Part shown: one piece after another, positions 1,885 through 36,240 of the stretch | Position numbering within the stretch: the first letter of the stretch is position 1 | Layout: each line of letters begins with the position of its first letter | Assembly: GCF_000003815.2 (NCBI RefSeq) | Contig: NW_023365837.1 | Span: 92,145 to 156,144 of the forward strand | Origin: Branchiostoma floridae | Lineage: Eukaryota > Chordata > Leptocardii > Amphioxiformes > Branchiostomatidae | Length of the DNA stretch: 64,000 nt | Reading direction: 5' to 3' | The notes under the pieces: model-generated | Databases searched by the model: none | What the model was told of the DNA's origin: nothing | Seen by the model: only the letters and a program-made list of their open reading frames with translations | Program-made: the position numbers and the translations under genes

Positions 1885-1887
1885 AAT

Positions 1888-2530
1888 GATAGTTACACTC
1901 GCCAAGAAGGTTATATATATGTTTTCGTTAAATCGTTAGCGTTTGACTGTATGTCAGTACGATGACTCAAGAGTGTCTTGATATTGGTTAGGTTAGCCCT
2001 TTTCGTGTATGATTACATTTTGGACCCCCTAGCGGTACTTTAACGGTTTTGATACCTCTTGTTATCTCAGGAAAAATGAAGATATAGTTTTGGGTGTGTC
2101 TGTCTGTCTGTGTTTCCGGATATTTGTGGGCAGCATATAATAATATGCAATAATATACAATAACTCAAGAACCTCTGGATGGATTGCCATGGTATTTGGT
2201 ATGTTGGTAGGTGTTGGAAAAACGAAGGTCAATGTCAATTTTGGGCCCCCTGGTATGTGACCTTGGTAATGCAGCAGAAATTCCTTTTTTTTTTCTTTTG
2301 ACCTAGATGTGCTATGGTCTTGATTTTTTGGTGGCAGATAGCTTGTGACGTAAGGAATAGGTGGTGTATGTTTGGGTCCCCTAGCAGGTTGCTCTGGAAC
2401 TGCAGGAGCGTTTTTCTCTAAATCTTCCAAGGAGGATAACTGGACAAGGGAACGATAATTTTAGATGATATTTGGTATGTAGGTAGCTTAGACAGAGGCG
2501 TACATAATGAAGTGCAAATTATGCAAAGTG
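1888..2530 (+). repeat. Interspersed repeat, 'gccaagaaggttatat / gggccccct' family
   Basis: The stretch begins with a GCCAAGAAGGTTATAT-like motif. It then carries repeated units with 'ataactcaagaac..tggat', 'tatttggtatgt.ggtagg' and 'tttgggccccct(agcgg)'. The same order of motifs recurs at 19365-19830, with partial copies near 20480-20620, 51370-51500 and 61640-61680. The class is unknown. Short open frames here are repeat translation, not genes. Confidence 0.55.
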
Positions 2531-3216
2531 GCACTTAATTTGCATAATTAATGAGGGAAATCTATATTTGTAATGATTGTCATTGTAGGACTCAAATACC
2601 TGTCATGTATGTAGTTTGTGGCTGGTAGAACACTACCAGATATCAATTACTAGAAAAGTGATATAATTCTTCTAAATGGTAAATGATGGCACTAGGCTAA
2701 TGTGACACCTTTATGTGTGGAAGTAGCACTCATATACAGCCAAGTCACTGAACTCAATACAGCAGACACCATCTGTATATAGAAATAAAGAACTATCATC
2801 CACATGCTAGCATAAGGCCGTATGGATTCTATCATATGGATGGTATTCTTGTGTCCACCAATTCCCCCATGAAAAGAAACGTGATGTAACTTGTGCAAAT
2901 CAGCTGCTGTACTGGTCTTTACAGAGAGATCTGAGCAAATAATTAATTCAGAAATTGCCCACAAATTTGAGACAAAGATGAGAATGTATGAATCAGATTC
3001 TTACCGAAAAAGATATTGAAACAACACAAAACAAAATAAGCATATTAATCAGTCTAATTTCCTCTCATATGAAAAGTAAAATAAAAACATACAAATTTCT
3101 TTTCTTATGAACATGCAGCCAACCCTTTCATTGGTTGAAACACTTAGATTTCCATGCTTTCATTGGTTGAACTGCGCGTAATTTTGTCCTACATACAACA
3201 TCCGCATTTTTACTGT

Positions 3217-6152
3217 TCATGCAAAAAAGTCATTCTCTCCGGAGAAGAGATCAATTTCTTGAGTCCCAGGGCTCGGCTTGCTGGTGAGGTTGGACTTCCT
3301 GGCAGCATGTCTGAGTTGTCTGCCACTCGTAGACTCTCCTGATGTACCCTGAGAACTGCAGGGACTCGAGGCCCCGTCTGGCAGGGTCCTGGTGTCCGCC
3401 CGGTTACCTGCTGGAGTACAGGGTACCTCTTGGTCTGCAAAAGATTTACTGTATGGTAGGTATGGGTAAAAGGTAAAGCTAGTCTTATGTACGGCCCTAG
3501 GGGTTAATAAGTGGGTTGTTATCCACATGGTATTGAGGAGCGGGGCCCATCATCTTTTAACTCATCTGCTGAAGTCAGGTAATCTCTAAGCAGATCTTGC
3601 GTGGCCAATTAACTCCTCTGCCAGCTACAATCCTTCCCCAGCTTGTGATACTATCTTAGGGTTTACGGAAAAGGCTGGCCTGTCTACCTGGGCTGTCTAC
3701 CTGGGCTGTCTACCTGGGCTGGCTATCACGTCAGGCTACTTGGACCTACGAAAGCCCATTGGGACAAAAGCTGTTTTAGCAGTAGGGGTTGTTTGTGCTC
3801 AGCGAAGAAGCTATGTGTGAAGGATCTGTGCGTTATTATGTGAATGAGCTGTGTGAAGTGGCAGTGTGTGAAGGAGCTGTTTGTGAAGCAGCTGTGTGTG
3901 AAGGAGCTGTGTGTGAAGGAGCTGTTTGTGAAGCAACTGTGTTTGAAGGAGCTGTGTATGTTACATAACCCAGAGGTTTTGGGTTTGAATCAGTTGATAT
4001 GCCACCAATCTTGTGCGCTTGGGAAGGGCTCTTACCACGACTTTCCTCCCTTCACTAGGGTGGAGAAAAGAGTATCTAGCTTTGGTAAGGGCCCTCCCTC
4101 AGATAGGGCATAGAACCCACTCTTACGGAAAAGACTAGGGGTCCTTCCTTCCCAGTGTATTAGTGGTTCAAAACTTAAGTCCTATGGCCACACCTGGGGT
4201 AATTGCTGTTGTATTGAGGTCACCTTAGTTAGCACCAAATGGCAGCAGTTCCAGACCCTTGCACTTTAGCAACGCTTATTTCAAGCTCCTCACAATTCAA
4301 TTGTCGATCCTAATGTATGGCACAGAAGCCGGGACCCTGACAGCCACTAAAGAACAGCTCCTGGACACCTTTGACCAACTAGCCACCACTCCAATCAGCC
4401 CGATAAGTTGTGTTAACAGCCCTTCCCAAGGGAACAAGATTGGTGGCACATCAACTGATTTGAACCCAGAACCTCTGGGTTATGTAACACACACAATAGC
4501 TTCACACATAGCTTCTTCATTGCGCACAAACAACCCCTACTGCTAAAACAGCTTTTGTCCCAATGGGCTTTCGTAGGTCCAAGTAGCCTGACGTGATAGC
4601 CAGCCCAGGTAGACAGCCCAGGTAGACAGCCCAGGTAGACAGGCCAGCCTTTTCCGTAAACCCTACTATCTTATGCCACGCAAGATCTGCTTGGAGATTA
4701 GACGTTATGTACCCATCATTTTCACACCTGGGTAGAATAAGGTCGTGTGAAGTGCCTTTCCCAAGTGCAAGCGATCGATAGCATGACAAGATTTGAACTT
4801 CGGACTTCTGCGCTCTGGGTCAAACACCCAACACAATTAAAAGTCTATCTCTGTCTATAACATTAGTACTGTACTTTTGCATAGTTGCAACTGCAAATTC
4901 CTTGTTTCAATATACTCCTACTTTGCATTGTGCCACCATTTGAAGCTACCTGTGTTCATAGCAGCACCTTGTTGGTTAGTCTAGTCCTGAACAACGTTAA
5001 ATGTAAAATGACCCTGGTGTAATTTGAAAGGAATTGATCCGCCCTGTTTTTACCTTGTGGCATTGGTGATGTAATCTTCTGCACTTTGTTGAATTGCTGA
5101 TTTTCCAGTGGGGTAGATTTTGGTGTTGCAAACTTTGGTGTGCACGGGACAGACCTCATACCTAAAAGTGGTGATTAAAAACAAAGAATGTTAAAGGTTC
5201 AGTATCTGTATCTCAGTACTTTTTGCAGCACTCCATAACCCTCTTTAATGGCATTTCCATAATGCAAATTTTTGCAATTCAATCATTGCTTTATTTGGCA
5301 GGACTTGGTCATGAATACCGGGGTAATAATGATGGAAATTGATGGGCGCACAGTTTTGCGAGGGGGGGATAACATTAACGTTATAACAACAGCTTTTACT
5401 GTAAGTGCTTTCAGGGCTCGAAATGCCACCTGCATGTGCAGGTAAAATTGGAGCTGTGCAGGTATTTCTGGTGTCTACCTGCACCTAACCTGCACTGGTC
5501 CATGTACTGGGTTTTGTACATAAATGTCCTATGATGTGGATTGTTATTAGCTGCATTGTTACCACCTATAAAGTATAAAGAAGAAATAGCAATGGTTCCT
5601 GAACACTTTTGTTGACGATCCATACCTTATAAATTCAGAGTGGTGCATGTAAAATTTGTCTGGTGCAGGTAATTTTTTATGTAATCTGCAATACTCACAT
5701 AACTGCTGACACACACAAAGACAAACAAACACACCAACTGATTAGTAAACAGAACCTCCATTGTTTTGTTTTTTTTACGGATAAAGTTGGTACAGAATGA
5801 ATCTAAACTGCATGGCAAGAACTTGTTGGGACCATACTATAAGCAGCGATACCTAGCTGCAGTGTGGATTAGTGCAAAAACCGGTCACCTAAACGTCGTC
5901 TATGATTGTTAATTGTACAATAACATCACGCTACAACAATAACTTGATTGCTTGTGAATGAAAGAAAAAATGCTACAACTAAATCTACGCACGTGGAATC
6001 GCAAAAGGACTGTCCAGTGGATCTGGAACCTTCCTACGCAGGTGGTCAACATCAGGCACATGTCTGGACGGGGGCACAGCTTTGGTCATCAAAAATGGTG
6101 AACATGGCACGTAGTGGAAGGGCGAACTGGCACACTCCTCGCTTGCCATCAT
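3217..6152 (-). CDS. Uncharacterised small SP/TP-rich protein, four exons, divergent from the PP1-docking gene
   Basis: Exons on the minus strand: 5989-6152 (start ATG 6152-6150, a second ATG follows directly), 5779-5807 (29 nt), 5054-5161 and 3217-3434 (stop TGA at 3219-3217). All junctions are GT-AG, phases match, and the total of 519 nt gives exactly 172 aa. I do not recognise the family. It has no predicted membrane segment. It is rich in proline-directed sites and repeats a 'VPC(S/T)P' motif three times, followed by FATPKSTP. A basic stretch, RQLRHAARK, precedes an acidic-hydrophobic end, DLFSGENDFFA. The first exon starts about 130 bp from a CCAAT-box cluster shared with the divergent gene. 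CDK-type sites plus that promoter suggest a cell-cycle protein (inference). Intron 3 holds a large foldback repeat. The 29-nt exon is the weakest element, but it is what makes the phases agree. Confidence 0.6.
3810..3960 (+). repeat. Degenerate 15-bp tandem repeat (gtgtgtgaaggagct)
   Basis: About ten degenerate copies of a unit like GTGTGTGAAGGAGCT lie inside the left arm of the 3540-4800 foldback. They are open in one frame but are clearly repeat-derived. Confidence 0.6.
3959..4185 (+). mobile_element. SINE-like repeat, copy 1
   Basis: Begins 'cccagaggttttgggtttga' with a B-box-like GGTTTGAATC, and continues with 'ttgggaagggctctta' and 'cttcactagggtgg'. The same order of motifs recurs at 39652-39910. 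The tRNA relationship is weak. Confidence 0.4.
5412..5690 (+). mobile_element. MITE of the CAGGGCTCGAAAT family ('tgcaggta' type), 3' truncated
   Basis: Starts with the TIR CAGGGCTCGAAAT and carries the 'tgcaggtaaaattggagctg' interior found at 33603-33930 and 50357-50697. The right TIR is not visible. It lies in intron 2 of the minus-strand small gene. Confidence 0.6.
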
Positions 6153-6274
6153 CCAATTTCAGAAGATTCTCCTAAGACAGTCTTTTAAGGACCGCGCTTT
6201 AAGTAAAATACAAGAAATCGCGAGTCAATTTCGTCCCAGTATGTGTGCAACATTGATCTAATCAAATCTAAAAC

Positions 6275-6525
6275 TTTTGGCCAATCGTTGAGCATTTAAC
6301 ATTTTTTTCTAGCCAATCAGTAAGGAGATAACAAATTTTCCCGATTTAGCCTAGCATCACATCCGGATCCTGTCAGTTGCATGCTGGGAAATTCTATCTT
6401 CATTAACTTTAAGCCAATCGCTGAGTATTTAACATTATTTCCCAGCCAATCAGGAAGAAGATAACACCCAGCTCCTGTCTGTTGCATGCTGGGAAGCTTC
6501 ACTTTCCCGGGCCTTGTTCGAAATT
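6275..6525. promoter_or_regulatory. Divergent cell-cycle-type promoter: 4 CCAAT boxes, 2 ZNF143-like cores, CHR
   Basis: CCAAT boxes start at 6281, 6313, 6414 and 6446, which makes two pairs, each with 32-bp spacing. Each pair is followed by GCATGCTGGGAA (6379-6390 and 6484-6495), the reverse complement of a ZNF143/Staf-like TTCCCAGCATGC core. A TTCGAA, matching the CHR consensus TTYGAA, lies at 6517-6522 just after TTTCCCGGGCC. The pair-plus-core module is a tandem duplication. NF-Y pairs at about 32 bp with a CHR are the known layout of G2/M promoters bound by MuvB/DREAM. The block sits between the minus-strand ATG at 6152 and the plus-strand gene. Confidence 0.7.
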
Positions 6526-6585
6526 TTTTCTTCGGGAGGACATTATTACATTATTACACAGACTGGCTGCTTTTGGGGATTTCAG
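6526..6585 (+). other. Probable non-coding first exon (3' end) of the PP1-docking gene
   Basis: The stretch after the promoter ends in TTCAG|GTACTT, a good donor at 6586. It could splice to the acceptor TTTTCACAG before 7950, the exon that carries the start codon. The transcription start is not visible. Confidence 0.35.
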
Positions 6586-6970
6586 GTACTTTTGACAGAA
6601 ATGTTGACAATCAGACGGTGTTGTTTATCTTTAGGATCACCATAAAGGCGTAAGAATTTCTGTATGGTTGCAAACTAGGGAATATTTTTTATCCTTGGCG
6701 TGGATTGTTTTGGTTGCCATTTTTCCCGCCATCACTCAGTTGCTCTGATGTTTTTCTCTGTCCCTTCCTTAGTCCATACTTGTGGTTGTGTGACCTTTGA
6801 TGATTAGTTGATATATGGATATCTGACCAAATGAAAATCACCACGGTATATGCTTGAGGTTATATTTTTATTGATATCAAAACATCCACTTTAAATATCA
6901 GTTTGTTTGTTTGTTTGTCATGGTGTCGTCCGCTGCGAGTTAGGTGAATATTGCTGAATAGCTTATTGCT

Positions 6971-7194
6971 GTAACGCTTAGTTCACCTTTATCCACAGGG
7001 TAACCTATATTCGTTGTGTTTACCAACTCGGTATTAAGGTTTATCAAGCTGGACGGACAGTGGTTTCAAGTTGTAATATGTTTAAAATATTGTAGTTTGA
7101 CACTCTCGTCTGTCGACTTAATATCCCTAAATACCCAGCTCTGACAACAACGGATATAGGGTACCCCACGGAAAAAAGTGAACTAGCGTTATAT
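6971..7194. mobile_element. MITE with TIR like GTAACGCTtaGTTCAC, copy 1
   Basis: The left end reads gtaacgcttagttcaccttt and the right end carries gtgaactagcgttata in reverse, with 'ggGTAACC' / 'GGGTACCCC' inside the arms. The second copy is at 55546-55768. Confidence 0.6.
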
Positions 7195-7307
7195 GTACAA
7201 AGAGGTTTGATATAGGGAGACCCTATACAACTCAACTTGGGTCTCCCTTATTTGTTTAATATGTACCTTTGACCCACAATTCACTGATGCCTGCACATGT
7301 GTACATC

Positions 7308-7724
7308 AGGGGTGCAAAGCATTTGCACAAACCCTATGAGATTTGTACGAACATTATGTGATGCGCACGAATCTCTTAATGTGAAAATGCACAAACGTTA
7401 TGAATTTAAATCACACAAATCACTATGGGGAAAATACACAAACGTTATGAAAATCACACAAATCACTATGCAAAAAATGTACGAACCTTATGCGAATGAT
7501 GTAATGACCCGGTGGTGGTCGAGGGTTTCGCATAAGGTTCGTGTAAATCGCATTAAGGTTCGTGTGTGTCACATAGTGATTTGTGCGAATCACATGAGGT
7601 TCGTACGTTTTCGCATAGTGATTCGTGTGATTTTCATTGGGTTCATGCATTTTCACATAGTGATTCGTGCGTATCACATAATGTTCGTACGGATTTCAAA
7701 GGGTTTGTGCAAATGCACCCATGT
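7308..7724. mobile_element. Palindromic element with 'cacaaatcactatg' repeats
   Basis: The left arm starts ggggtgcaaagcatttgcac and the right arm ends with its reverse complement. Inside, 'cacaaatcactatg'-like units run left and their complements run right. Related half-elements lie at 50187-50350 and 51220-51290. It lies in the 5' intron of the PP1-docking gene. Confidence 0.65.
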
Positions 7725-7974
7725 ATTTTAGGAACGGTGAGCAAGCTTATCTCATAGTGTTGTACTAGTGAACGAGTTGTGTTTACTGGTTTGTTGAAGA
7801 GTGTAAAGAGTTCATACTGTAAACTTTTTGCAAATGAATACGATTGCAAGCTTTTCTTTGTTGTTGTTGTGAGTTGAAAGGGCTTTTCAATAAAAACATG
7901 TAAATCATAATACTTTTGATTATTAATCAACTTAATTTTTTTTTCACAGTCAGCAGAAGTCAAATTATTTCAAG

Positions 7975-10900
7975 ATGAGCTCCAAATGGTAAGTCCTTGG
8001 TTCCAAAATGTGTATTGTGTTCTGTTGGAAAATTCTAAAACTGGTTTACTGGTGTAACATACCACAAGGCGTCACTTTAAACCCTGATAATTAATTTTCA
8101 ATTTTATTGGATCACCCCAATGTAAAAAAATGAGTTTCATCAATTATGATAAGCAGAGTTTGCGATATATAACAAATTTCATGATCAAAACTCAAAACAA
8201 AATGGACTGCATGCATGAAATTGTCTGTGAAATTGAAATGAAATAAAGTGTGTAAACGTGTGCGAACATGTACAGGGTTAGCCCATAGTAATAGCCTACG
8301 GCTAGTTGGGAAGACCTGGCTGTTTGTAAACAGCTGAACAAATAAATAAATAAATTGTTTTCATTTTGTACCAATGTTATTGCTCTTCTTTATAGGGTGC
8401 CATCCTTAGGTACCACAACACCTAAACAAAGCCCTGGTACTGTCAAAACCTACTCCAGAAAAGTGCCAGTAGCCAGGGTTGAAGACAGTGAGGAGAGTAC
8501 AGTGTTTCCACAACCATGTAGGAGCAATCCTTTCAGTGATGAGGGTATGTATTAGCCTGGGTACCATCCGGATAATAGTTCGCTCCTATGTTTGCTTCTG
8601 TTATCCGTCTGGAGACCTGCACATTCAAACCGTTTGGGAATCAAGGAATAGGTTCTAGAGCACTTGTCGATGCCAACAGGCCCTCCCGCAAGCAGACAGA
8701 TGGCTTGACCGGTGTTTGAACGCCTGTTCGAACGATGGCTTGAACCCATTCCATAATTCGCTTACATGTGGGGACCAGTCAGCGCCTGCGTCCAAAATTT
8801 GGACGATTCCAGACGTTGAGATGGTCCGCGTTCCCAGACGGAAACACAGAGAAGCGACTGTATATAGTGTATAATGAACGTCAGAGCTAGAAGCGACTGT
8901 ATATATGTGTATGATGAACGCCGGAGCGAACTACTTTCCGGATAGTACCCAGGCTAGGTATGTATGTGCAGGGCTTAAAATACTTGGTGCATGTGCACTT
9001 GCACCTTTGTGCAACCTACATCAAACTTCAGTCTGTGCGTACACCGGTGCAGGTAAAGGTAATAGTACACTAGAACATGTACACAGAATATTCCTGAAAT
9101 TTAGGTACCGGTATCATAAAAGTAATTAGCAAAACATTTGTCATACATGTACCGTTACAATGTATGATGTATTTGGGATTTTGAGGTTAGCTAATAGAAG
9201 TATGCTGTGCTCCTGAAATCTTTCTGTGCACCCAGATGTCTATTTTAGGTTAGGTGCACCACAGTTTGCCTAAGTGCTGCGTACCTAAGCTCAAATTCAG
9301 GTTCAGGTCCAAACTCAAGTCCAGAGATTCAGGTGTCCAGACCTGAACCGATGGCTTGTAAGTTGTATACTATGAGTAACTGAAGTGAATGATTGTACTG
9401 TATTTGTACATAGGGATGCATTAGGTGTTTCCGTCTTATTGTGTGTTTATCTCCAATTTGCCTTCAAGTGCGTACTTTGTTTTTATCTCGTCCTTGAACA
9501 GAAGAGCAGCTAAAACCACAAGACAAGAAGAAACAGCTTGTAACAGAGCTACAGTCTCACAACTGCCATCCCAAATGCTCCGAGGAAAGCTTACAAACAC
9601 CAGCAAAGAACAGACACTGGGTGGAAGAGAGATCCACTTCCCAGGACTCTGATAGAAAATCTGTCTGTGGACCACTGCCTCTCATCAAAGGAAAGTAAGC
9701 CTTTTACTACTACTTACTTACTTTACTTTAAAGGAAAGTAAGCCTTTTATTTGGTACAAATCTTAGGTTAGGTTTTCAGTAGCAGGGTTCTTTTTTTTTT
9801 CTATTTGCTTTTGGACAGATAAGGACAATGTGGAACTGCACTCAAGTTTTGTAACTTATATGAACAGTGCCACAAACACGTGCCACAAACACAGTACAGA
9901 CAGACAAAGGTAGTCTTTTACCTCCCCGACCGAAGTCAGGTAGTACCCATTTTTACACCTGGGTGAAGTGAGGAAGGTCGAGTTAAGTGCCTTTCCCAAG
10001 GCCACAATGTCGGGGGCATGGCGGGGATCGAACTCAGGACCTATAGATTCCGAGCCGAACGCTCTACCAGTTATGCCACGCCTGACGCCACAAGCAGGGT
10101 TCATTTACATAGTTACCTAGTACATTGTAGTGTGCTATGACAATTGACATTATTGATATCGGGTCATTTTAAGTGTCAAAGACAATACTTTTTCAAATAG
10201 GGCCTAGCAAAATTAATGTTGAGTTTCCAGTTATGGTCCTGAAAAATTAGTCTGTAGGGATTCTCTCTCTCTCTCTCTCTCTCTTCTATTTGTCTTAGTA
10301 GAAGTGATCCAACAAGTACAGTTTAGCTATGGAAAAATGAATTGCATCTGATTCAGACACTGCATTTTTCAACATCACTGTTTTAGGTATATACATTCAA
10401 GCACAAGACCATAATTATACAATAAATTGAACAAAGAAGTACAACCCTACACTGTCTTACATCCACTGACTGTTCAAAGCATTAAGCTATTAACAGATTG
10501 TGAAATACAGGCAGTCGGTTTTGAATTTTGTCACTAAGTTAGATGTCAGATCGAAAATCTCCCTTGCCAGTGGTCTACCAAGAAAGGCTAAGGCATGGCT
10601 CGAAAGTCATGTTTGGGATTAGGTGCACTGGTGCACCCAGCTTAAAAAATTGGGTGCAGCACTTAAATTTAAGTAGAGAGTCCAAAAAAACTAATGACAA
10701 AACTTAGTTACAAGCTATCAAATTCTTAAACAAGTACCATGACAGACATTTTTATTATCTTTCTAACAGTTAGATGTCAGGAATATGATGTATGCTAGTA
10801 TACTCGATATCTTTCCATACATAGACCTAATAAAACATTTGGGTGCACCCTGTGCACCCACAGAAAAAAATTGGGTGCACAGCTCCAGTTTTGGGTACAC

Positions 10901-22900: not shown

Positions 22901-25900
22901 TCTCTGACTCAGAGGGCTCAAGTCTCAGGTCCATTCTCAAGACAAGCTCTAAGACATCAAAGAAGGCAGACTACTCGACTAAGGTGTTTTGAATCTTTCG
23001 AGCTACTCAGATAAGGATGAACTGAACTGAACTGAACTGAGCTACTCCACATTTTACCTTATTTCATTTTCCTTCCCATTGTACTTTTGTTCCAAACACA
23101 ACACAATATAATTTTTAGGATGTGAAAATAATTCTCTTGTCTTGTGTAATTATCCCCTTCCTATATATCCAGTTTTATGTCATACCTGGGTCTTGATAAC
23201 ATCTGATATGGTTGTTCTGGGCTGATTGGTATTTTATATTGCATGGGCTAAGAAGCTGTATTGTATGGACTTCCATTAAATGACTTGAACACACTTTGTG
23301 TGTGCTGAGCTTTGGAAAATTCAAATGTTTGGATCAATCCCAATCTGCCAAATCCACCTTAGGAGGACTAATCCTGTGACATGGTGAATCCTTAATCTCA
23401 AATCCTTAGAATTCTTGGCAGGCCTTTTCACCATAGAGGTCCATATGCTGTGATTTAGATCCCTTATGCTGTGATTTGCGCACCTATGCTATGATTTAGA
23501 TCCCTTACGTTGTGATTTGGGCCCCTATGCTGTGTTTCAACCAACAAATGGGAGTTCTCAGTGTAGTTTTGCACAAAGGGTAAAGTAAAGTTGGCTGTGT
23601 TGCGCTATGTTTGGCCCTCAAAGCGCAGGAAATAGTGTTTCAGGGGTTTAAAGATTAAAGAATTTCAGGAGGACGAATCCCCCAAACGCCTTACAATACT
23701 CACGTCTGCATTGCGTACCATGTGGCTTTGCTGCACTAAGATGCCCCTATGTTGTGAAAATCCCGGTGAGAACACTGTTCCTGATATGCATAATGGGTCT
23801 ATTAAAGAAAATCTATCTTACCAGGAAGCACATGATGATGGAGAGAGGAAGCAGGTGTCGTTCTCCCCAGAGGTTCAGGTATCTCAGATAGACAAGAACA
23901 CCACTCATCCCCGCCAACGGGCGTCACTCGTCATCAAACCCTGCACAATCCCTGCTGATGTCGGACCATCTCTCACGTGTCAAAAGGTAAGAGTTTTAAA
24001 ATTCTTCATTACCTGGCATTAGGGGTACGGTGTACCAGTACGAAACCATTTTTTCGTGCACTACGGTGGCTGGCGTTCACAGGTTTTGAGGAGTATTGGT
24101 CTAAGAAGATAGCAAGAGCGACGTAGCGGAGAGATGATAGTCCTACAGTTTCTACCAGGCTTTTAGCTTGGATTTTAAAATACTATAGGGAGTCCAAACT
24201 TATTGGTGAGTCGCTGTAAGTGACTATTGTAGGGGTGTCCGGGGGCATCCACCTTCCATGGTGCAGAGTTTTTGATGATTTTAAGTTATAAAAGTGCATT
24301 CTTAGGTATCCCAAGAGGCAAAAATACTGTTCCAGAGGTCACAGTAGAAGACTGTGACCACAGATGACCTGGTTGCATCCCTGGTCAATCAGAATTTCAT
24401 GCTTGTCAGACGATTTTCTCCCAGTGTAAGGGCGTCCAGGGGCATAAAATTTCTTGTTATTCTAAGAAAAGTGCGTCCAGATGACGCGTTGACGCATGCC
24501 TGGCTAAAAGCCTGGTTTCTACAGTCAAACTTGGTCTTACTTTACAGAGGCAGTTAGCGTTGTTTACGCAAAATAGGATACTCTAACAATCATATTCCTT
24601 TGTAGCAAAATGGACCATTGTTTTGAGAATTGTCTATTTGCGAACAATTGGGTACAGGTTCAGGTCTGGACCTGGACTGTATATACCTGTACTTGAATTT
24701 TCTGTACCAGTATACCCACACCTACCTTGCATCCATCCTATTGTATTTACGTTTGTCCCTTTGATTCCTTCCCTGCAAATAATCTGACACCCTTTTTATT
24801 TGGATTAATGTTTCAGATGCTGCTGCAGAAAACCAAAAGGAAAGCTGGAGTAAGTAAGCCAACAGGAACAGCCCCTACGGAACATACCAACCCACGGGAG
24901 GATGGGGAAATGGAAGGGAGGCAGAGTCATAGTGAAGGCAGGGCAACACAATCCTTCAACAGCATTCTCTTAGGTACTCCCAATGGTTTCACTTCTTACC
25001 TTTACTTTAATGTCAACACCTCAACACAGTCTTGCATTTTGTTTTGTATTTACAGGGGAATAAAAAGGAATTTTTTTATTGATTAAGAGCAAATGAAAGA
25101 GCTACAATGTAGCCAACGTTCCCAAGTTATGGTCAAAGTTAGGATGGTCTACAAGGCAAGCCAGCTGGAAAAGCTCATAAACATCGTAGCAAGAATTGAT
25201 GAAACATGGCACCTGTATTTAACAAGGGCCTGAAGTGACAGCTTTGTTTATTTATTTATTTTATTAACATTCTCCAAATACAGTGGAAGGTACGGCAGAA
25301 CATTTGTTTCTTGTTAAAAGATGCCTGTGGCTGCCATACCGAACCTTGTGATAGCTTAAGTTTTAATTGGCAACTAAACTGAAAGTTTCTCTACAGCTGC
25401 TGAATTCATTTTTACTAGTGTTACTTCTTTATGTACACTTAAGTCAACCGCACAATGTATTTTCCAATATTAGGAGGAAATAGATTTATTTTTTATTTTT
25501 TTCAAAATCAGGTGAAAATGCTTGCACTGATCGGTACAATTTACTTGCTGCAGAGCTACTTGTTCAGCCAATGATAGTTGTCAGGAAATTGTAGTGATTT
25601 TGCTGGCTTATGTTTAGTAGGTCAACATCCTAGCATGAACCATGACCCAGGAAGCAGCAGTAACAGCGATGAGGACAGTAGCAATGATGAGGAGAAAGAC
25701 TCTGAAATAATGAGAGAGGCTGCCAGCACACAGGGTAAGACAGTTTTAGGCCTAGCAAAACAATTCTGGTTACAGTCCTGAAAAACGAGCTTGGGATTTT
25801 TTTTAATTGCATTTTATCTTTTTTAGATTTCAGTCAAAGTGATGTAACAAAATTGTGATTATACAGATTTGCATTGTGCGAGCACAAGTATATATATGAT

Positions 25901-28900: not shown

Positions 28901-31900
28901 GATGTCCCTTAATGTTAATGGCCTCCTTGACGCCCCTCACGAACCAATCCTGTTCGGAGTCGTGAACTTGAAGATGCGAACAAAGTGTTTTTGTTGGAAC
29001 AAAGTTTAAATTTTTTTTCACTATAGAATTTACCAGCACAGATGAGCTTTCATTCGGATAATTATCTCACCAGTTTAGTTTAGGCCTAGGAAAAAAAGAA
29101 ATGTTGTGTTTCCTGTTTCCCTACATATCCTAAAAAAAACTGACAAAGTGGATGGGTAGTAGAGTCAAATAGCTTTCAGTTAGAATTTTTATTCAGCCTG
29201 CTTCATATTGAAATAAAAAACACTGCATGTCCTTTCTATAATGAAGAATAAATGAAATCAAAGTTTGACACTGAAAGATATGTGTCATTATGCATTTCAG
29301 TTTACTTTGTTCAAATGTATCAATTTGTAATATGTATCACTAGAGTTTCAGCCAGCCTGAAAAAATTACAAGGAAAAAAAAAAGATATTCCCTACCTAGC
29401 AACACTTATTTTTTAGGACTGAAACAGGAAACTCAACATTTTTTTCCTCAGCTTTATCCTCTGTGTGGTAATACATGTACCGGTTTCTTCCTAAGTCCCT
29501 GTTAAGTATGACAGCAAAGTTCATCATCCTAAAATGCTACATTCAGAACTGCTTTCAGTATGTGTCTGTCCCTGGTGCTGAATCATGTACTATTGTTAAT
29601 CCATTCAATAATGTGGTTAGTAAAGGTAGCAGTTGGGGGAAATGAAGTAGTTCATGGCATTAAGTTTTAACAGTTGGAACAAAAATCACTGTCTCAGATG
29701 TTGAATGATCAAATAATTCCTATGATGAGATATTAATGGGTTGGTAAAATTAAGCGAGTCAACAGATCAAGAATGACAGTTTAAAAAAGTTAAAGTTTGC
29801 CCATACATCTACAGATGCTTAGGGTGGCTCCCATCTCCACTTCGAAGCCCTTGGGCCACACATTTGTGCAAGTCACTACAGCAGGGGGCTGGTCCGCTGG
29901 TAGTGATGTGTGTTTAACTTCCATATTCTTCCTCATTACAGTATCAATTTATTTTTTATTTTTCAAGAGCTTTGATGGAAGGTAAAACTGTACATTGATT
30001 AATTCATGCTGAGGCCGCCATACCAGTGTAATGTCTTGGTTCTCGGTTTAAAAAGAATGAGAGGTACATAGAACATTGACCAATCAGAAGAAGAGATACG
30101 TAATCTCAAGTCGTGAATAATAACATTGACCAATCCTGATTACAGATACAATGCTAAATTGAAATATTAACATAAAAACAGACTCTGAGTGGAAAATCTG
30201 TACATTTTGGAGAGTGAGTCATGTTTTTACCCAAGCCTTCTGTTTTCATAACATTCTCTAGCTAAGATTATGTATACATTTTTTTTGAATGTCTGAGAAT
30301 GTACAAATTAAAATTGATGTGGGCTAATTTTGACGTGATGCAAATCCAGGAGATTCTTGAAGCCAACAAAGTCTGGAGAAAAGAATCAAAGGAAAACCAC
30401 TCAGGAGCAGTTTGAGAGTACAGGTAAGTCTCTTGATATCATAACTGTCCCCATGTTGGTGTCCCTATTTGCATTTCAGTCAATCATAGCTCAAGCATTC
30501 TGGATCATTCAAATCTTTTGGCCCTCAAAACTAAGCACTATGACATGTCTTAACAATTCAGAGAAGAGATTACCAGAGTTATACTTAGCATTATTGCTAA
30601 CAGAATACAAAATGATGTGTGCTATGAGCTATCATCCTATGAAATGAAATGCAAATAAGGATATTATGGAAAGTTGGTAAAAATGCTCTATTGGGGCCTT
30701 TTTCCTTGTAGTACTTCATATGTAAAAATATTGTTATAGCTGCATATTTGTATACGATCTCTCTTTTATAATATCACATCATCTTCCCACCCAGGTGAAG
30801 TAAAGGAAGTCAAGAAGAGAAAGTCAGATGCCAGTCTCCCCTCCCAGTCAGGGCTGAGGTCTATTCTCAGTGGATCATCACAAGTAAGGGTCACGTTGGA
30901 TTGTTTTCGACTTGTCAGGTTATGTAGCAAATCAATATACATGTAATATTATAGTGAAAATGCACAAACAACGTGTAATGATTATCCATCATTTCCACGG
31001 TTAGACAGATTTCTAAATAATCTACTGGCCTGACCCAACTTTATATATACTGGCCTGAAGTTTAGTTGATATTGAATTTTGATACTTTTTTTATACATTA
31101 AGGAATTCATTTAAATTCATTTTTCAGTTTAGAAGAAAAGCAGTTAAGATTATGTAACAGTGCTTTAACTACAAGTCTAAGGTTTTAGGACTCTTCCTTC
31201 TTGCTAAGTTTTAAATTTTGTGTTGATGTCATGTACTTCTAAAAAATGACAAGAAACCTAGTCTCAATGCATGATATCTTGTGTTAAGGTCTGAGAAGCT
31301 TCTAGGAATGGTCAGTTTGACGAGCTTCTGGGAGCGTCGTTAATTCAGGCTAGTGGACTACATCTGCCCATGGAAAAATCACAGCCATGGAAAAATCACA
31401 ACCATGGAAAAATCACAACCATGGAAAAATCACAACCATGGAAAAATCACAACCATGGAAAAATCACAACCATGGAAAAATCACAACCATGGAAAAATCA
31501 CAACCATGGAAAAATCACAACCATGAAAAAATCACAACCATGGAAAAATCACAATCATGGAAAAATCACAACCATGGAAAAATCACAACCATGGAAAAAT
31601 CACAACCATGGAAACATCACAACCATGGAAAAATCACAATGGCCTGATTGTTGAAGTAGGACTTGTATTTGCCCAAATGGCACTTTTACTTACCAAGGGC
31701 AATTGTACCTATTTATAGACTTTTCCCACCCTGAGTTCTGAAAGGAAACTTTCCTCTGTATTCCACAGGGCAGTGGCAGTAAGAGAGTTCGCTTTTCTGC
31801 AGAGCTCAGTGCCTCCACAAATAGTGGGAGAAACTCGATTGCCTCCTTGGTTGTCAAGTCTGTCAGATTGAGCAGTAAGAAACAACTGTCCATGTCCAAT

Positions 31901-34900
31901 TCAAGAAAAAAGGTGAGTTGATGGTTTAAAAAAAAATGACCAGTTCACAAGGACTTTTTGTAAGCCATGTTGATTTGATGGTATGGTTGACATTTGCATG
32001 TGCATCAATTTTCGTCTGACTGTTTTCAAAGAAAAAGTTTGAGACCATACTGTCAATCTTATCAAGAAAATGATCAGAAAAAGGGCTCTTTTTAAACAGT
32101 TGGAGAATGCCAAAGTTAGTTCCAGAATCAAAAAAGAACTTTAAGCGGCCTAACTGGATAAAGGTGGTATTTGTTGTGGTGTTTTTTGTATGCAATCTCA
32201 GATTATCGTAGTTTGTTGGCCAGGGGACTGCAGTTATTTGTTGATGCTTACAATGTATTACATTTCTTGATGTGTTCTTCCTGTGCAGGACCCAGCAACC
32301 CCTCACCCTTCTACAGGGAGGTTTAGACAACGGGTCAGCACAGCGAAGAGTGGCCGGAATATCAGAAATGTAACCTTACAGGCTAGTGTGAGTGGGTACT
32401 CATTCTTTTACTTTAATTGCTGGTAACGACATAAGGCCAACAAAAATGTTGTGTTTCCTGTTTCAGTCCTGAAAAAAGTAGGGTTTGTAGGTAGCGATTA
32501 TCCTTTTTCATTCTAGTATTTTTATAGGCTGGCCAAAATTGTAGTGAGACATATTACAAGTCTAGTCTTTTTAGAACTGTTACAGTTCTGCAGTAGGTAG
32601 AGCTTTCAATTGGTGTTTTGCAAGATATCAGCTTCTTCAAGATTTCTTCATAAATTCAGAAAGACCTCATGGTTTTGTTTCAGTACTAAAAGGTTCTCCT
32701 CAGTCTGCAATACAATGTATCTTATTATCAATCTAAAATCATATGGTATATCATTCTCACGTCCAATGCATCATCTTTTTTCTACAGAAGGATCTGTCAT
32801 CGATACACATACCAACCTACGATGAAAGTGACTTACTCATCAACAACTCTCTTCCTGGAGTTACTGTCAACTCCCGAGAGATTGCTCCAGACTCCCTGTC
32901 CTTTGAGCAACAGAATAAAGTCAGTGAAGTCTCAAAGTCTCAAAGTGGAAGTGTCAAAGTGAGTATGGTTCACCCTTAAATAGTTTCATCAGGTTGGTCA
33001 ATACTCATATAGTAAGGTTTTTCCAACACAACCGAAATAGTACTCGCTTCCAAAGTTTCAATGTCTATCAGACACCATCATCAGGGTAGAATGGCTGGAT
33101 CGGGGCTCTAGCCAGCTTGAAATTTTTTTCCATCAGCCAATTCCCACTGTCGCAAAAACCGCGATAACACTAATTCCAGGAGCTATTAGAAAGACTGAAC
33201 TGAGACCTTGAAAAATGGGTTTTAATGAGATAATCGTATGCAAAAGAGCGCCAACATACTTTGTCAACAATAGCAAAACAAACAGTGTGTGGCTTTTACG
33301 TAGCAAATTTCTGTCCATTGATGGAAAAACGGACGCTGGCTAGAGCTGTGGGCTGGATCTACTTCTCACTGCTACTTATAGCTGATGTAGGTGGCGCTGC
33401 AGCAGTGAGAATGCCGTCCCAAACGTGGCTCAATTTGTATCCCCCCTCATCTCTGTTCATAATCAAAGCTGACTTCCTGATCGAGACTGTTTCCTTTATC
33501 CAGCATGTCTGTCTGTTTTCTTGTCTATAAAGCAGTGAGAAGTAGATCCAGCCATTCTACGCTGATGATGGTGTCTGATAGACACCGAAATGTTGGAAGT
33601 GACAGGGCTTGAAATACCACCTGCATATGCAGGTTTGTACACTCAGGTGAAATTGGAGTTGTGCAGGTATATCCGGTGTCTACCTGCACCTAACCTGCAC
33701 TGGTCCATGTACTGGGTTTTATACATAAATGTCATATAATGTAGGTGTATATGGATTGTTATTAGCTGCATTGACACCTATGGTGTATAAAAGCAATGGT
33801 TCCTGAACAATATTAGTATGATCCATACTTCCTAAATTCAGAGTGGTGCAGGTAAAATTTATCTGGTGCAGGTAATTTTCAATGTTATCTGCCCCATGCA
33901 GGTATGTAGAAAAAAGTATTTTGAGCCCTGGGAGTACTCTTTTGGTTTTGTTGGAAGAACCTTACTATATGAGTATGGTTCAGTAGGTCATCATCACTGG
34001 CAAAAGAAGCCCTTGTGATGAAGGGAGGAGGTAACCAAAAAGAAAAAATTGTATTGGTGCAAGGTAGCATGGTATACTGCCCAGTTTTAGCTTCCTTCCC
34101 TCTGCCTTCCTTCTGGATCTTCTGTCCTGCAGACAGGCCAGGTTTCGCTAGAGGGCACTCTTTCCTCACCCTGCATGTGGCTATTGCTCAATGTACTTGT
34201 GAAATCTGTTAAAATATAGTTTCAATCCATTAATTGTGAAACAATCTGAATAGCATCCCAAAAAGTTTGATATTTAAAAATGAAATACCTAGGACAAAAG
34301 TGTGGCTATACATTATTGTACATGAAAGGATAAAGCAGCAAATGTTTTCACAGCTTACCTGCAGGACATGTTATGGTCAATAGGAGGCGTGATAAGCTCT
34401 TTATACAAGTCATAACAACTAGGCTAAGCTTAGAATGCCACCATTTTACCTCACCATTATCTAATGGTTACGTGGCCAGCCATTGAAAAGCATTTTGTTG
34501 TAATTTAGAAAGATTCTGCAGCTGGCATCATGGAACAGGCTCAATATAACTCACATATTGGAGAGAACAGAAACTGTATTTCTAACCTTGGGTGTGGAGA
34601 CTATTTCCATGCTACAGTTATTCACAACACTTCAAGGTTTTGCACTTTATTCAAAGTACTCTTTCCCTTGTTTCTGTTTGTTAGAAAGGCAGGTACAAAA
34701 CCAGGAAGCCTGCTACCAAAGCTCACAGTGCACGGAAAACCGCCACCCTTAGAGCAAAAGCTTCAGCCAAGGTATTCACCTGAACCGTTAGATGTCATGT
34801 ACATGTAATACGAAAAAAATTGAATCATATTTTTTCAAGAAAATTTATACCAAGTACATGTACATGGTAGAAACATAGGGGACATACACATGTACACATT

Positions 34901-36240
34901 TTTGTACATGAGGCAATGGACTGTTCATTTACATCACAACAAAAGACTAAACAAATAGTAATGCTCGCTGTTTGCTATCCATTGTGTTGAGATAAGTTGG
35001 GTTTGGCTTCTTTTTGCAAAAGGGTTTTGTGATTTTAACAAGTCAGAGAAACTGACTGTGAATGTGGGAAAGTTTGTGTATGTCGTGGCGACTTCTTTAA
35101 ACAGTGCATTTCTTCTATGGTGGTAAACTGAACAATTGGAGATGTGTTGTCAAGTCTCCCACAGCTTTACCTAATTACAGTGTTCACACATTCTTTCCTA
35201 CACTAGTAAAAAAGTGTCATTGAATTATGCAACTTCTTTCTTCTGTTTACCAGCGTCTCAGCTCTAAGTCTATGTCAAAAGCCTACCCTCAATGCTTTGT
35301 TGAGCGACAGGAGGTTTTCCGTGACAAGACGGCCACGGTGCTTATGGCAGTGAGAGAAGAATCGTCTGATGACATGGATGCAGACGAAGGTAACACTGGT
35401 TTCATACAATAAATTTTCTTTCAGTATACAGCAGGACTGTCTCCAGGACCCGTCCTTCTGTCCCAGGACGGAAATTTGCTAGTTGGGACAGAAAAATTTA
35501 CACTATTTTACACCAGGAAATTCAACAACATGGTCTCCCAAACAATGAGTGGGACGGAAAAAGATTTAAGCTGGAGACAGCCCTGGTATGCAGGGAGTTA
35601 ATTTCGCTGTGTAAAAACTTAAGGGAATTTCTTGATGGGAGACATTTGCATCATTTTAACAGAATACACACAGAATACACGCTACTGACTTTGCAGCAGT
35701 AAAGAGTTTGTCACAAACATAAAACTGCTGAAAATATTTAATGATTTAAAGTACGTGTGTTTGTGTATCTGACTTTTACCTGCGCTACATAATAATTGCA
35801 GTCGTAGAACAAAATTTATTAGTATTTCGGTATATTTGAGAAATTGGGCAAATTTATCTAAAAGCACCAAATTTGGCTTCCATAAAAATTGTAGTGTTTT
35901 CTATGGAGGCATCTCAATTTCTGTTCAGAATTGATGTAAATGGGGTTATGGGCCATTTTCTGACCAGAAATGTGTACTGGGTATGTGGGGCTTCTGTGCT
36001 CTGTAATTCAAGTGAAATGTAAGTGAAGTGAAATTTGATATAGGGGTGCATAGGATTATGTACACAGGACTTAATTTTTCTAGCTATGTTACTGGACTAT
36101 ATTGACTCAGAGTTATAATTGTAACCACACATCGAAGCAGAAGTAGTATTAATTATATTCCATTTTTTTCTTCTCCAGACTTGATCGAAAACCTGATGTA
36201 CACAGCCCGCACAGGAATGGTCTCAATGTGGGCAAAATAA
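7975..36240 (+). CDS. Uncharacterised Ser-rich protein with duplicated SILK/RVxF PP1-docking cassettes, about 25 exons
   Basis: Coding exons with matching phases: 7975-7988, 8396-8544, 9502-9694, 10993-11096, 11660-11718, 12043-12066 (weak), 12268-12367, 13366-13449, 19927-20052 (acceptor uncertain), 20680-20766, 22008-22047, 22197-22249, 22859-22983, 23825-23986, 24817-24973, 25621-25734, 26189-26239, 28542-28659, 30350-30423, 30795-30883, 31769-31912, 32289-32387, 32788-32958, 34685-34771, 35254-35389, 36179-36240 (stop TAA). This gives about 870 aa, of low complexity, rich in Ser, Lys and acidic runs, with no membrane segment. Cassette A has LRSILK (exon 22859) then KQVSF (exon 23825). Cassette B has LRSIL (exon 30795) then KRVRF (exon 31769). 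SILK and RVxF are known PP1-binding motifs. The C-terminal part is basic, then ends in an acidic patch and DLIENLMYTARTGMVSMWAK. No orthologue is recognised; a mitotic PP1 scaffold is an inference. Confidence 0.65.
8553..8956. mobile_element. MITE inserted on the exon 2 splice donor, 9-bp TSD
   Basis: The TIRs are TAGCCTGGGTACC at the left and GGTACCCAGGCTA at the right (imperfect inside). The flanking GGTATGTAT is duplicated at 8544-8552 and 8957-8965. The duplicated bases contain the GT donor of exon 2 (donor at 8545). The 9-bp duplication is MULE-like; the superfamily is otherwise unassigned. Confidence 0.8.
8967..9060. mobile_element. Fragment of the 'gtgcaccc' MITE subfamily
   Basis: Starts 'agggcttaaaatacttggtg' and holds 'gtgcacttgcacc'. 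This is a diverged left part of the elements at 10600-10935 and 61927-62077. Confidence 0.45.
9870..10092 (-). mobile_element. tRNA-derived SINE, copy 1
   Basis: The minus strand reads GTGGCATAACTGGTAGAGCG (A-box region), then GGTCCTGAGTTCGATCCC (B box). It continues into a shared body with 'cttgggaaaggcacttaac' and 'cacccaggtgtaaaa.tgggtac'. The same body occurs at 57106-57335, and a head fragment at 61500-61580. Confidence 0.75.
10261..10284. repeat. (CT)n microsatellite
   Basis: About a dozen CT dinucleotides lie in an intron. Confidence 0.8.
10600..10936. mobile_element. MITE, 'gtgcaccc' subfamily with CAGGGCTCgAAA-type TIRs
   Basis: The left end is 'ggctcgaaagtcatg' and the right end 'gtattttgagccctgg'. 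The interior is full of 'ggtgcaccc' in both orientations. A fragment of the same type lies at 11815-11920. Confidence 0.6.
12441..12733 (-). mobile_element. MITE, 'tgcaggta' subfamily, interrupted
   Basis: The left end is 'agggcttgaaatcc' and the interior is the 'acctgcacc' type. The right end runs directly into a second MITE at about 12735, which suggests nesting. Confidence 0.55.
12735..13065. mobile_element. MITE, 'cttgcccgat' family, copy 1
   Basis: Repeated 'acttgccc' motifs and terminal 'gacttgtccaatcctg' match the element at 20075-20395, which has the same order. TIRs are imperfect, of the type AGGGTTGGACAAG. Confidence 0.55.
13625..14090 (-). repeat. Left arm of a near-identical 460-bp inverted repeat
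   Basis: Reads as the reverse complement of 14422-14885 with only a few differences. Both arms contain a Penelope-like 3' end ('ccgtacaaaataaagcgctt') and the same internal MITE fragment. The arms therefore arose by duplication after that insertion. Confidence 0.8.
13930..14210 (-). mobile_element. Penelope-like element, C-terminal coding end and 3' region
   Basis: The minus-strand frame carries DSEQDYF.RGVKEAIYIR and QPSLNRDGG, the region after the GIY-YIG nuclease of Penelope-like retroelements. It recurs intact at 18434-18895. It is joined head to head with plus-strand Penelope sequence at about 14212. Confidence 0.7.
14212..14421 (+). pseudogene. Penelope-like coding fragment, interrupted
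   Basis: The frame reads SEKEHLVSVLKQCGYPGWAI and RGFVILLYVKDLSEALR, the stretch just upstream of the GIY-YIG domain in Penelope-like proteins. It breaks off at about 14416, and the same reading resumes at about 18434 after a 4.0-kb insertion (right inverted arm plus LINE). Confidence 0.65.
14422..14885 (+). repeat. Right arm of the 460-bp inverted repeat
   Basis: Mirror of 13625-14090. It starts CTTTGACACTTTACTGACG and ends 'tgttaataatattat', immediately before the LINE 5' end. Confidence 0.8.
14886..18438 (+). mobile_element. Apparently full-length CR1/Jockey-type LINE
   Basis: A 5' leader of about 200 bp precedes one long ORF (15089-18349). A short 3' tail ends in a purine-rich 'gggaagaagaagagaaga' run, after which Penelope coding sequence resumes. 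No disabling mutation is visible. It lies in a large intron (13449 to about 19927) of the PP1-docking gene, in the same orientation. Confidence 0.75.
15089..18349 (+). CDS. LINE polyprotein: PHD finger, AP-like endonuclease, reverse transcriptase
   Basis: An intact ORF of 1086 aa. Residues 40-89 form a C4HC3 zinc finger of PHD type (C40, C43, C56, C59, H64, C67, C86, C89). Residues of about 145-370 are an endonuclease/exonuclease/phosphatase fold, with LNVNFQS, ETWL, AGDFNFPSW and a terminal SDHS. About 585-860 is the reverse transcriptase, with NYRPISLTS, DFQKAFDRVNH, SGVPQGTVLGP and the catalytic FADD. The C-terminal region shows the WDPH and QRRAARFV blocks usual in CR1/Jockey elements. 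It copies its own RNA at a nicked target (target-primed reverse transcription). An in-frame Met at residue 30 is an alternative start. Clade assignment to CR1 rather than another Jockey-group clade is uncertain. No ORF1 is visible upstream. Confidence 0.85.
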   Translation: MAPPSHPSDSYLMSLRTFSFVFTALLAISMSSNDSSSAPCGICDLPVTWSDRGVECETCGTWFHASCQHIGSDTYLNITLDTTWRCVICANANYSSTLFDLHGVEQEYSRNLSSSSLPDSESGFKPLHSSTPTRNSQHGRQLNRPLRMLNVNFQSASGKPAEIANMLHSTKPDVVFGTETWLYPDIKTTEFFPDGFNVYRKDRTGKIGGGVLIAVRDHLQCTEVPELDPGGEILWLKLLIRNQRPLYLCVFYRPSSSDKAALEKLDMALRRASAMKNAQLIIAGDFNFPSWNWEAMTLKPNPVYTTLHQQFVDLLYDTGLDQIVQDPTRGENTLDLVLTNSPSLIPRVEVIPGISDHSIVYFEYKTKPEVLQNANRPILLYGRANWEAMKQDMETLQQSFTDPEHMSTEELWQKFKLALKGSIAKHIPTKKPRRKESLPWMTSGIHHLIRKRDRLYRKMKKSGSLDMRKEVKNLNREIRKQMRRSYWRYTEHLFSPTSSEESSRPSLKRFWTYVKHQRSTTTGVPALKSNGKLVVDPKQKAELLNKQFYTAFSEGATYTASEFKDRCPMPDSRNDFPSMDNITISTKGIEKLLTRLNPTKAAGPDGITPRVLKELATELSPILTTIYKSSLHTGQVPKDWKEALVTPVFKKGEHYKASNYRPISLTSVPAKILEHVLVSAIMHHLESNNILSTQQHGFRKHHSCETQLLEFVEEASSAMESGVATDVIIMDFQKAFDRVNHSLLVHKLDHYGIRGRTNSWIANFLSDRKQAVVVNGAQSSYVDVRSGVPQGTVLGPCLFLTYINDLPERISSPSRLFADDTAVYRLITCLEDSSKLQEDLGKLEDWESEWDMAFHPDKCSQLPLTRARKPPNAHTSYKLHNHTLERVPSAKYLGVTLQADLSWGKHIDNTYSKANRTLGFLRRNLRVCSSKTKELAYKALVRPVVEYASSVWDPHTNRDISKIEKIQRRAARFVLNRHRNTSSVSDMLEQLQWPSLQDRRRTSRLAMLYKILNGLAHVRCKTLKPLPSSNRCRRGHSLQLQHIPCRTNYRLNSFLPRTVREWNNLSEETVQSPSLARFILKVSSAS
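18434..19015 (+). pseudogene. Penelope-like element: GIY-YIG endonuclease part and 3' end
   Basis: The frame from about 18434 to 18897 (stop TAG) reads FDTHGVKTCFKPTKTLRQYL, then CGVIYHIPC..SYVGET..LRTRFLEHR (a GIY-YIG nuclease core) and QPSLNRDGGRYRLPS. The reverse transcriptase is missing. The 3' region contains 'aagcgctttattttgtgtac' and 'acagatgaacttac', shared with the other Penelope fragments here. Confidence 0.8.
19066..19256. mobile_element. MITE fragment, 'tgcaggta' subfamily
   Basis: The interior is of the 50357-50697 type and the right end is 'gcatttcgagccctg'. The left part is missing. Confidence 0.55.
19365..19830 (+). repeat. Interspersed repeat, 'gccaagaaggttatat / gggccccct' family, copy 2
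   Basis: 'accaagaaggttatatttt', a GT-rich run, then two 'gggccccctagcggcttgtt' units and 'tttggtatgtagatagctta'. Same order as 1888-2530. Confidence 0.55.
20075..20395. mobile_element. MITE, 'cttgcccgat' family, copy 2
   Basis: The left end is 'tgttggacaggttttctaag' and the right end 'gacttgtccaaccctgc', with imperfect TIRs. The interior has repeated 'acttgccc'. Confidence 0.6.
20840..21125 (-). mobile_element. Diverged Penelope-derived fragment with inverted ends
   Basis: 'ccgtctctgttcagggatag' and 'ctctgatatagatggc' match the minus strand of the Penelope QPSLNRDGG region. It is bracketed by 'cttgaactagtttaactg' and 'cagttagactagttcaag'. Confidence 0.5.
22280..22740 (+). pseudogene. LINE remnant (C-terminal end of a reverse transcriptase protein)
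   Basis: The frame at 22325-22675 reads RRDVASLALFYRYFHGKCS, then TSLWNKLPRTCFP and LKLFKSSVNRHL. This is the carboxy tail typical of Jockey/CR1-group LINE proteins. It is followed by a short A-rich 3' end. It sits between exons 22197-22249 and 22859-22983 and is 5' truncated. Confidence 0.65.
23445..23545. repeat. Short tandem repeat, about 25 bp unit
   Basis: Four degenerate copies of 'cttatgctgtgatttagatcc'-like units, intronic, just upstream of the RVxF exon 23825-23986. Confidence 0.6.
26300..26645 (+). pseudogene. LINE/RTE-type remnant
   Basis: A frame around 26396-26645 contains VENETHLISQCPLYEAER, resembling the zinc-knuckle-like 'E(T/N)..H.L..CPLY' tail of non-LTR retrotransposon proteins. 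The upstream Cys pair is degraded. Confidence 0.4.
26936..27468. mobile_element. TIR element AGCTAaGGGCACAACCC, copy 1
   Basis: The left end is 'ttagggcacaacccgccgta' and the right end 'gtgggttgtgcccttagc'. The interior matches 38401-38718 in the opposite orientation. Confidence 0.65.
27780..27995. repeat. Foldback repeat, about 80-bp arms
   Basis: 'acactttgaaaggcgtaaac' in the left arm is mirrored by 'gtttacacctttcaaagtgt' in the right arm. The central sequences 'gtcttgttgacggagtgacc' and 'ggtcaccactctgttaacaa' are also mirrored. Confidence 0.6.
28001..28447. mobile_element. TA-flanked TIR element (Tc1/mariner/pogo-like MITE)
   Basis: The left TIR is CAGTCAAACCTGTATAAGCG and the right is its imperfect complement ending AGACAGGTTTGACTG. 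TA lies on both sides (27999-28000, 28448-28449). Internal 'tagtggccac' repeats. Confidence 0.75.
28715..29060 (-). mobile_element. Penelope-derived fragment with inverted ends
   Basis: The minus-strand frame reads VHDSEQDWFVRGVKEAINIK then QPSLNRDGG. It is bracketed by 'aaactttgttccaacacaaa' and its approximate complement 'ttgttggaacaaagttt'. Confidence 0.6.
31370..31645 (+). repeat. 17-bp minisatellite (accatggaaaaatcaca)
   Basis: About 16 nearly identical 17-bp units. They are open in all three forward frames because 17 is not a multiple of three and the unit has no stop. A single, unexpanded copy of the seed sequence occurs near 21518. Intronic. Confidence 0.9.
33101..33350. mobile_element. 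hAT-like MITE, GGGCTCTAGCCAGC family, 8-bp TSD
   Basis: Ends 'ggggctctagccagc' and 'gctggctagagctgtg' are inverted. GGCTGGAT is duplicated on both sides (33093-33100, 33351-33358). Same family as 62584-62909. Confidence 0.8.
33603..33930 (+). mobile_element. MITE, 'tgcaggta' subfamily, complete
   Basis: Left TIR CAGGGCTTGAAATACC and right TIR GTATTTTGAGCCCTG. It lies inside the right inner arm of the 33001-33978 foldback. Confidence 0.75.
35432..35585. mobile_element. hAT-like MITE, CAGGaCTGTCTCCAG TIR
   Basis: Left end CAGGACTGTCTCCAG and right end CTGGAGACAGCCCTG. Flanks GTATACAG and GTATGCAG are an 8-bp duplication with one difference. It is only about 40 bp past exon 35254-35389. Confidence 0.75.

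Follow-up and report, generated by a model that had tools for sequence, protein, structure and literature searches.

A tandemly duplicated CCAAT pair at 32-bp spacing in Branchiostoma floridae: a candidate divergent NF-Y promoter

A module in which two CCAAT boxes 32 bp apart are followed by a ZNF143-like core occurs twice in tandem in a 64,000-nucleotide stretch of Branchiostoma floridae DNA (C279:92145-156144; this whole stretch is called the window below). The module probably acts as a divergent promoter that binds NF-Y dimers, carries ZNF143-like cores and drives a small orphan gene to the left and a long unrecognised gene to the right. The original prediction of a divergent CCAAT-pair promoter was upheld for the pairs, for the ZNF143-like core and, with tentative gene models, for the genes pointing apart, but not for the assignment to the G2/M type.

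Structure of the module and chance expectation

Four CCAAT boxes were located on the plus strand at 6281, 6313, 6414 and 6446, with successive start-to-start distances of 32, 101 and 32 bp, and the two pairs claimed at 32-bp spacing (6281/6313 and 6414/6446) were both confirmed. Copy 1 of the module (6272..6390, plus strand) contains the boxes at 6281-6285 and 6313-6317, and copy 2 (6405..6495, plus strand) those at 6414-6418 and 6446-6450. Both copies close with the identical 15 bases GTTGCATGCTGGGAA, at 6376-6390 and 6481-6495, where a common core of 12 bases had been predicted. The predicted tandem duplication was recovered in two blocks: 6272-6333 and 6405-6466 agreed at 85% (offset 133), and 6356-6390 and 6461-6495 agreed at 86% (offset 105). 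Copy 2 is shorter than copy 1 by 28 bp (16 and 12 in the alignment). The weak E2F-like string TTTCCCG is present on the plus strand at 6337..6343, in a stretch of copy 1 that is absent from copy 2, and again at 6503..6509, 3' of copy 2.

The alignment of the two copies contained 19 mismatches in 105 columns, a divergence of about 18%. None of the 19 fell within the 28 motif columns (two GCCAATC and TTGCATGCTGGGAA; hypergeometric p 0.0014), which, for columns picked after the motif had been seen, is a hint of constraint. When the 513-Mb assembly (513,431,437 bp in 431 contigs) was scanned with the 801 bp from 5900 to 6700, the only occurrence was the sequence itself, with neither an allele nor a paralogue, and the module is therefore single-copy.

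To estimate chance expectation, 300 sequences of 64 kb each were generated with a first-order Markov model. The window contained three CCAAT pairs with both boxes on one strand and a spacing of exactly 32 bp, against a Markov mean of 0.22, and none of the 300 sequences contained three or more. The arrangement of two 32-bp pairs 60-200 bp apart was observed once and was likewise absent from all 300 sequences. Four same-strand CCAAT boxes within 175 bp were also observed once, but at least one such group occurred in 62 of the 300 sequences, so that crowding of the boxes alone is unremarkable and their spacing is the unusual feature. The second CCAAT pair is not independent evidence, because it was copied from the first by the duplication. 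The third 32-bp pair of the window (3130/3162; 3130-3166, minus strand) belongs to a short duplication of TTCAACCAATGAAAG and is located some 50 bp beyond the stop of the leftward gene described below; no promoter was evident there, which counts against the promoter reading.

The 32-bp spacing and the ZNF143-like core across the genome

Two spacings, 32 bp and 37 bp, were counted genome-wide, with the pattern CCAATS, 25 bases, RCCAATS for the former and reversed patterns as controls. At 32 bp there were 780 matches against 182 for the reversed control; the 37-bp spacing, which is off by half a helical turn, gave 168 against 86. The first 100 listed 32-bp places formed 63 clusters by spacer similarity, the largest with 25 members. 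Over the stretch that they span (C1, C2 and, as far as 23.96 Mb, C3), the 37-bp spacing gave 26 places, unclustered and hand-counted. Redundant copies accounted for half (37 of 74) of the 32-bp excess within that stretch. The comparison of 63 clusters with 26 places points to a favoured distance of roughly three turns of the helix. The 32-bp pair is thus a general feature of this genome, partly by way of dispersed repeats. Five of the loci fetched (L013, L015, L031, L035 and L036) have a common repeat sequence, whose shared length reaches some 950 bp in the two loci that match furthest, with a 32-bp CCAAT pair near one end of the common stretch.

As repeats with such pairs are abundant and a single spacer cluster held 25 of the first 100 listed places, the module might have no function, being either a chance CCAAT pair copied in tandem or the remnant of a dispersed repeat. 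This is very improbable. The module is single-copy, gave no alignment better than E 0.37 with the 30 loci compared, and has spacers that reach no more than 52% identity with those of the 100 listed places; its motif columns have stayed unchanged in a diverged duplication. It is not one of the dispersed 32-bp-pair repeats.

From the 780 places 30 were fetched, and 21 were read after nine copies of repeats or neighbours had been dropped, namely the five loci with the common repeat, L022 (a neighbour of L021) and L039, L040 and L041 (a tandem array). L032 and L037, both kept, are weakly alike (72% over 183 bp). A gene start was recognised beside the pair in three of the 21 loci and in none of the other 18. 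The MCM5 start lies 384 bp on from the pair (PDB match, E 1.8e-11); CCAAT and E2F-like sites of its own lie closer to MCM5, so that the pair at this locus may belong elsewhere. The GTF2E1 start is 200 bp off on the other strand (Pfam TFIIE_alpha 1.4e-26, PDB 6.9e-58). This locus (L030) contains three same-strand boxes, two of them at 32 bp, with an exon candidate on the opposite side, and may be regarded as a close analogue of the window module. The third start, of an RMD1-3 family protein, lies 326 bp on from its pair (Pfam 2.8e-12), in a locus with TTTGAA sites.

MCM5 belongs to the S-phase genes, GTF2E1 to the housekeeping genes. In this small sample of 21 loci the 32-bp pair by itself is therefore no marker of mitotic genes; the spacing is over-represented genome-wide, in part in dispersed repeats, and is found near the starts of MCM5 and GTF2E1. 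Because the pair is general in this genome, the results suggest that a mitotic role of an unknown lancelet gene cannot be read from the spacing of its CCAAT boxes alone. For c-Fos-bound human promoters, direct CCAAT repeats are described in PMC4982600 as peaking at 31 bp, and binding of NF-Y to the same face is invoked there. A wider possibility, which we consider doubtful, is that NF-Y pairs three turns apart form a code that governs promoters throughout this lancelet genome. The code would be shared with humans, serve housekeeping and S-phase genes and be carried by at least two dispersed repeat families, and in the window the unit itself would have been doubled to adjust two divergent genes.

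The second element of the module was assigned by its likeness in sequence to a known core. The reverse complement of GTTGCATGCTGGGAA contains TCCCAGCATGC, which we take to be the ZNF143 core, and the GCATGCTGGGA cores of the module are on this assumption ZNF143-like. The 14-mer TTGCATGCTGGGAA had 32 matches genome-wide, two of them in the window, against one for the reversed control. No 32-bp CCAAT pair was present in any of the nine other loci read (L001-L008 and L010), three of which (L005-L007) look like copies of one sequence; one of the nine (L003) had a 33-bp pair about 200 bp away. Among the ten loci read, including the window, only the window combines a CCAAT pair with the ZNF143-like core.

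Flanking genes and direction of the promoter

A bidirectional promoter is understood here as one that separates two divergent genes whose starts lie about 1 kb apart or less. The tentative coding models on the two sides diverge from ATGs at 6152 and 7975. The leftward gene was modelled with two exons on the minus strand, the first at 5993..6152 (beginning MMASEECASSPFHYVPCSPF, with a weak donor score of 0.83) and the second at 3217..3434, running to the stop and giving 125 residues in total. Its acceptor is weak (0.50), and a stronger in-frame acceptor at 3407 would give 116 residues. Exon 2 can be read in another open frame as well, which makes the C-terminal half of the protein uncertain. 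Chain scoring favoured another first exon, at 4950-4959. No Pfam family was detected in the leftward protein, and its best PDB match (E 0.13) was not credible. Six SP/TP sites occur in the 125 residues, a number that was not significant in a permutation test (p 0.068).

Candidate exons of the rightward gene, all tentative and on the plus strand, extend from 7975 to about 36240 and would encode a long protein, disordered-looking by eye. The first coding exon (7950..7988) contains the ATG at 7975 (MSSKW), another (8396..8544) contains TPKQSPGTVKTYSRK, and a late exon (35254..35389) encodes an acidic end. Between them lie an exon with KQVSF (23825..23986), present in one scored chain only, and one with KRVRFSAEL (31769..31912), for which the scored chains use a shorter form that starts at 31803 and does not include the motif. 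KQVSF and KRVRF are RVxF-like motifs of the PP1-docking type. The occurrence of both in a protein of hand-chosen exons had a permutation p of 0.034. A phosphatase-1-binding chromosomal protein would fit and is offered as a lead. The best chains varied with the penalty: of three runs, two began at 7975 and one at 8914. They omitted one or both motif exons as hand-drawn; the scoring applied codon usage and splice frequencies of human to lancelet DNA. No splice donor above 1.5 for a rightward first exon was found in 6500-6800. No Pfam family was detected in the rightward protein, and a 330-residue selection gave nothing in PDB to E 5.

The Pfam scan, of the six-frame type with stops read as X, covered 202-6300 on the minus strand and 7941-15000 and 19000-39100 on the plus strand. 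No family exceeded its curated cut-off in these ranges except Pentapeptide, whose match falls in a 15-bp tandem repeat. Two more matches (E 0.09-0.1) were below their cut-offs.

Several other features were recorded in the neighbourhood. Two neighbouring TGF-beta ligands (Pfam TGF_beta 1.8e-12 and 3.3e-37) occupy the adjoining 10 kb (L009, C279:82145-92144) and window positions 2-201; judged by eye, one is Lefty-like on the minus strand and the other BMP/ADMP-like on the plus strand, ending at window position 201. SDE2 was found at 38.8 kb (38791-39015, Pfam 2e-28). LEFTY and SDE2 are adjacent in human too, so that the proximity of the Lefty-like gene to SDE2 may be an old linkage. An open frame of 1,098 residues at 15053-18349, with a PHD-finger-like start and endonuclease/reverse-transcriptase-like by eye, belongs to a LINE-type element. 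At 53617-54779 an 18-bp unit is repeated in tandem about 65 times, among coiled-coil-like coding stretches at 52.4-59.2 kb.

If the module is a divergent promoter, the 32 bp between the boxes of each direct pair, roughly three turns of the helix, would place the two NF-Y trimers of that pair on one face of the DNA. The trimers would bend the DNA and hold 6150-6560 nucleosome-free, and the ZNF143-like cores would bind the animal's ZNF143 factor and help to position transcription starts on one side or on both. For the rightward gene a start near 6520-6560 is assumed, ahead of an untranslated first exon. With the start placed there and the leftward ATG 129 bp from the nearest box, one box set could serve both genes. 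Tandem duplication of the unit at a later time has doubled the sites. The expected output would be broad or proliferation-linked basal expression with no specifically mitotic pulse.

The four boxes all have the same orientation, the plus-strand order of boxes, core and start suits the rightward gene, and both flanking gene models are tentative. These points would agree with a module that drives one gene only, the other gene model being wrong or its start lying elsewhere. Such a one-way promoter is nevertheless unlikely, since 129 bp is a normal promoter distance for the leftward ATG and NF-Y acts in both orientations.

The late cell-cycle assignment and comparison with known promoters

In a late cell-cycle promoter the NF-Y pairs would activate, MuvB/DREAM on the TTCGAA would repress in G0/G1, and both genes would peak in G2/M. 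The probability of this explanation is small. The TTCGAA predicted downstream of the module is indeed present at 6517..6522, and no TTYRAA other than this CHR candidate occurs in 6150-6700. The density in the 64-kb window (137 sites) predicts some 1.2 per 550 bp; a single site is thus close to chance. The TTCGAA lies 71 bp past the start of the last CCAAT box, outside the 12-42 bp range used for the genome search described below. No TTTGAA or TTTAAA occurs in 6150-6700, and the nearest TTTAAA within 5400-7400 is at 6890. The LIN54 consensus is given in PMC4974476 as TTYRAA with an A-T pair preferred at one of the two central positions, affinity being lower where this pair is lacking. TTCGAA at 6517 has no central A-T pair and is of the lower-affinity form, so that no optimal CHR was found in 6150-6700.

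Genome-wide, a CCAAT pair at 31-33 bp followed by TTYGAA 12-42 bp on gave 45 matches against 10 for the reversed controls. This over-representation would favour the late cell-cycle explanation, as would the two RVxF-like motifs of the hand-assembled rightward protein and, without significance, the SP/TP sites of the leftward one. However, 10 of these 45 come from a single repeat, and when 30 loci of the set were fetched and inspected by eye, none showed a recognisable mitotic gene within 1.5 kb. The repeat carries a 31-bp CCAAT pair with TTTGAA, and its 10 matches represent 8 places (L044, L057, L058, L070, L071 and others). In the five loci read, of which L070 and L071 are one place, the pair lies 81 bp before an open reading frame beginning MSAISRTDNPMERGD, as if the repeat carried a G2/M-type promoter.

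The human genes CCNB1, CCNB2, CDK1 and TOP2A are listed with CCAAT direct repeats in PMC4982600, which also speaks for a late cell-cycle promoter. For the human MKI67 promoter, mutation of the CCAAT boxes is reported in PMC8629999 to have cut activity without significantly altering cell-cycle timing. In the lancelet, two CKS genes, taken as G2/M genes, served as positive controls. The copy on C2 has one CCAAT box, followed 22 bp downstream by TTCAAA (TTTGAA when read on the reverse strand). For the copy on C3, no CCAAT box was present in the first 780 bp or so upstream, and the nearest TTTGAA lies 554 bp upstream. The NUF2 promoter, sought as a further positive control, was not located. With a weak CHR, these CKS controls, a pair-plus-TTYGAA count inflated by a repeat and the MKI67 timing result, the G2/M label is not supported for the window module. 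The promoter type originally proposed is weakened by the absence of TTTGAA and TTTAAA from 6150-6700, by a TTCGAA at chance level and by a pair that is general in the genome.

Compared with ZNF143/THAP11 SBS promoters, the window has the TCCCAGCATGC core on the minus strand, twice. A full ZNF143 site carries an additional outer ACTACAA block, and in this the window differs, no such block having been seen in the module. With the CHR/MuvB (DREAM, MMB) promoters of cyclin B2 and MKI67, as treated in PMC4974476 and PMC8629999, it has several CCAAT boxes in common; unlike them, it contains in 6150-6700 no TTTGAA or TTTAAA and only the lower-affinity TTCGAA, 71 bp away. According to PMC6292497, 25% of neighbouring protein-coding genes in amphioxus share bidirectional promoters, with housekeeping functions enriched. 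As in those promoters, two genes (tentative here) point away from a common interval; the published promoters are defined by CAGE, whereas the window is known from sequence. The words NF-Y, ZNF143 and CCAAT do not appear in the main text of PMC6292497.

A close correspondence exists with the c-Fos-bound human NF-Y dimer promoters of PMC4982600. Two direct boxes about 31-32 bp apart form the NF-Y CCAAT dimer, and the window contains two such pairs at exactly 32 bp, that is, direct repeats about three turns apart that are probably gene-proximal. It differs from the human promoters in PMC4982600 in that the pair itself is duplicated and is then followed by a ZNF143-like core. As a clean, single-copy, duplicated candidate promoter, the module is suited to testing NF-Y dimer spacing outside vertebrates.
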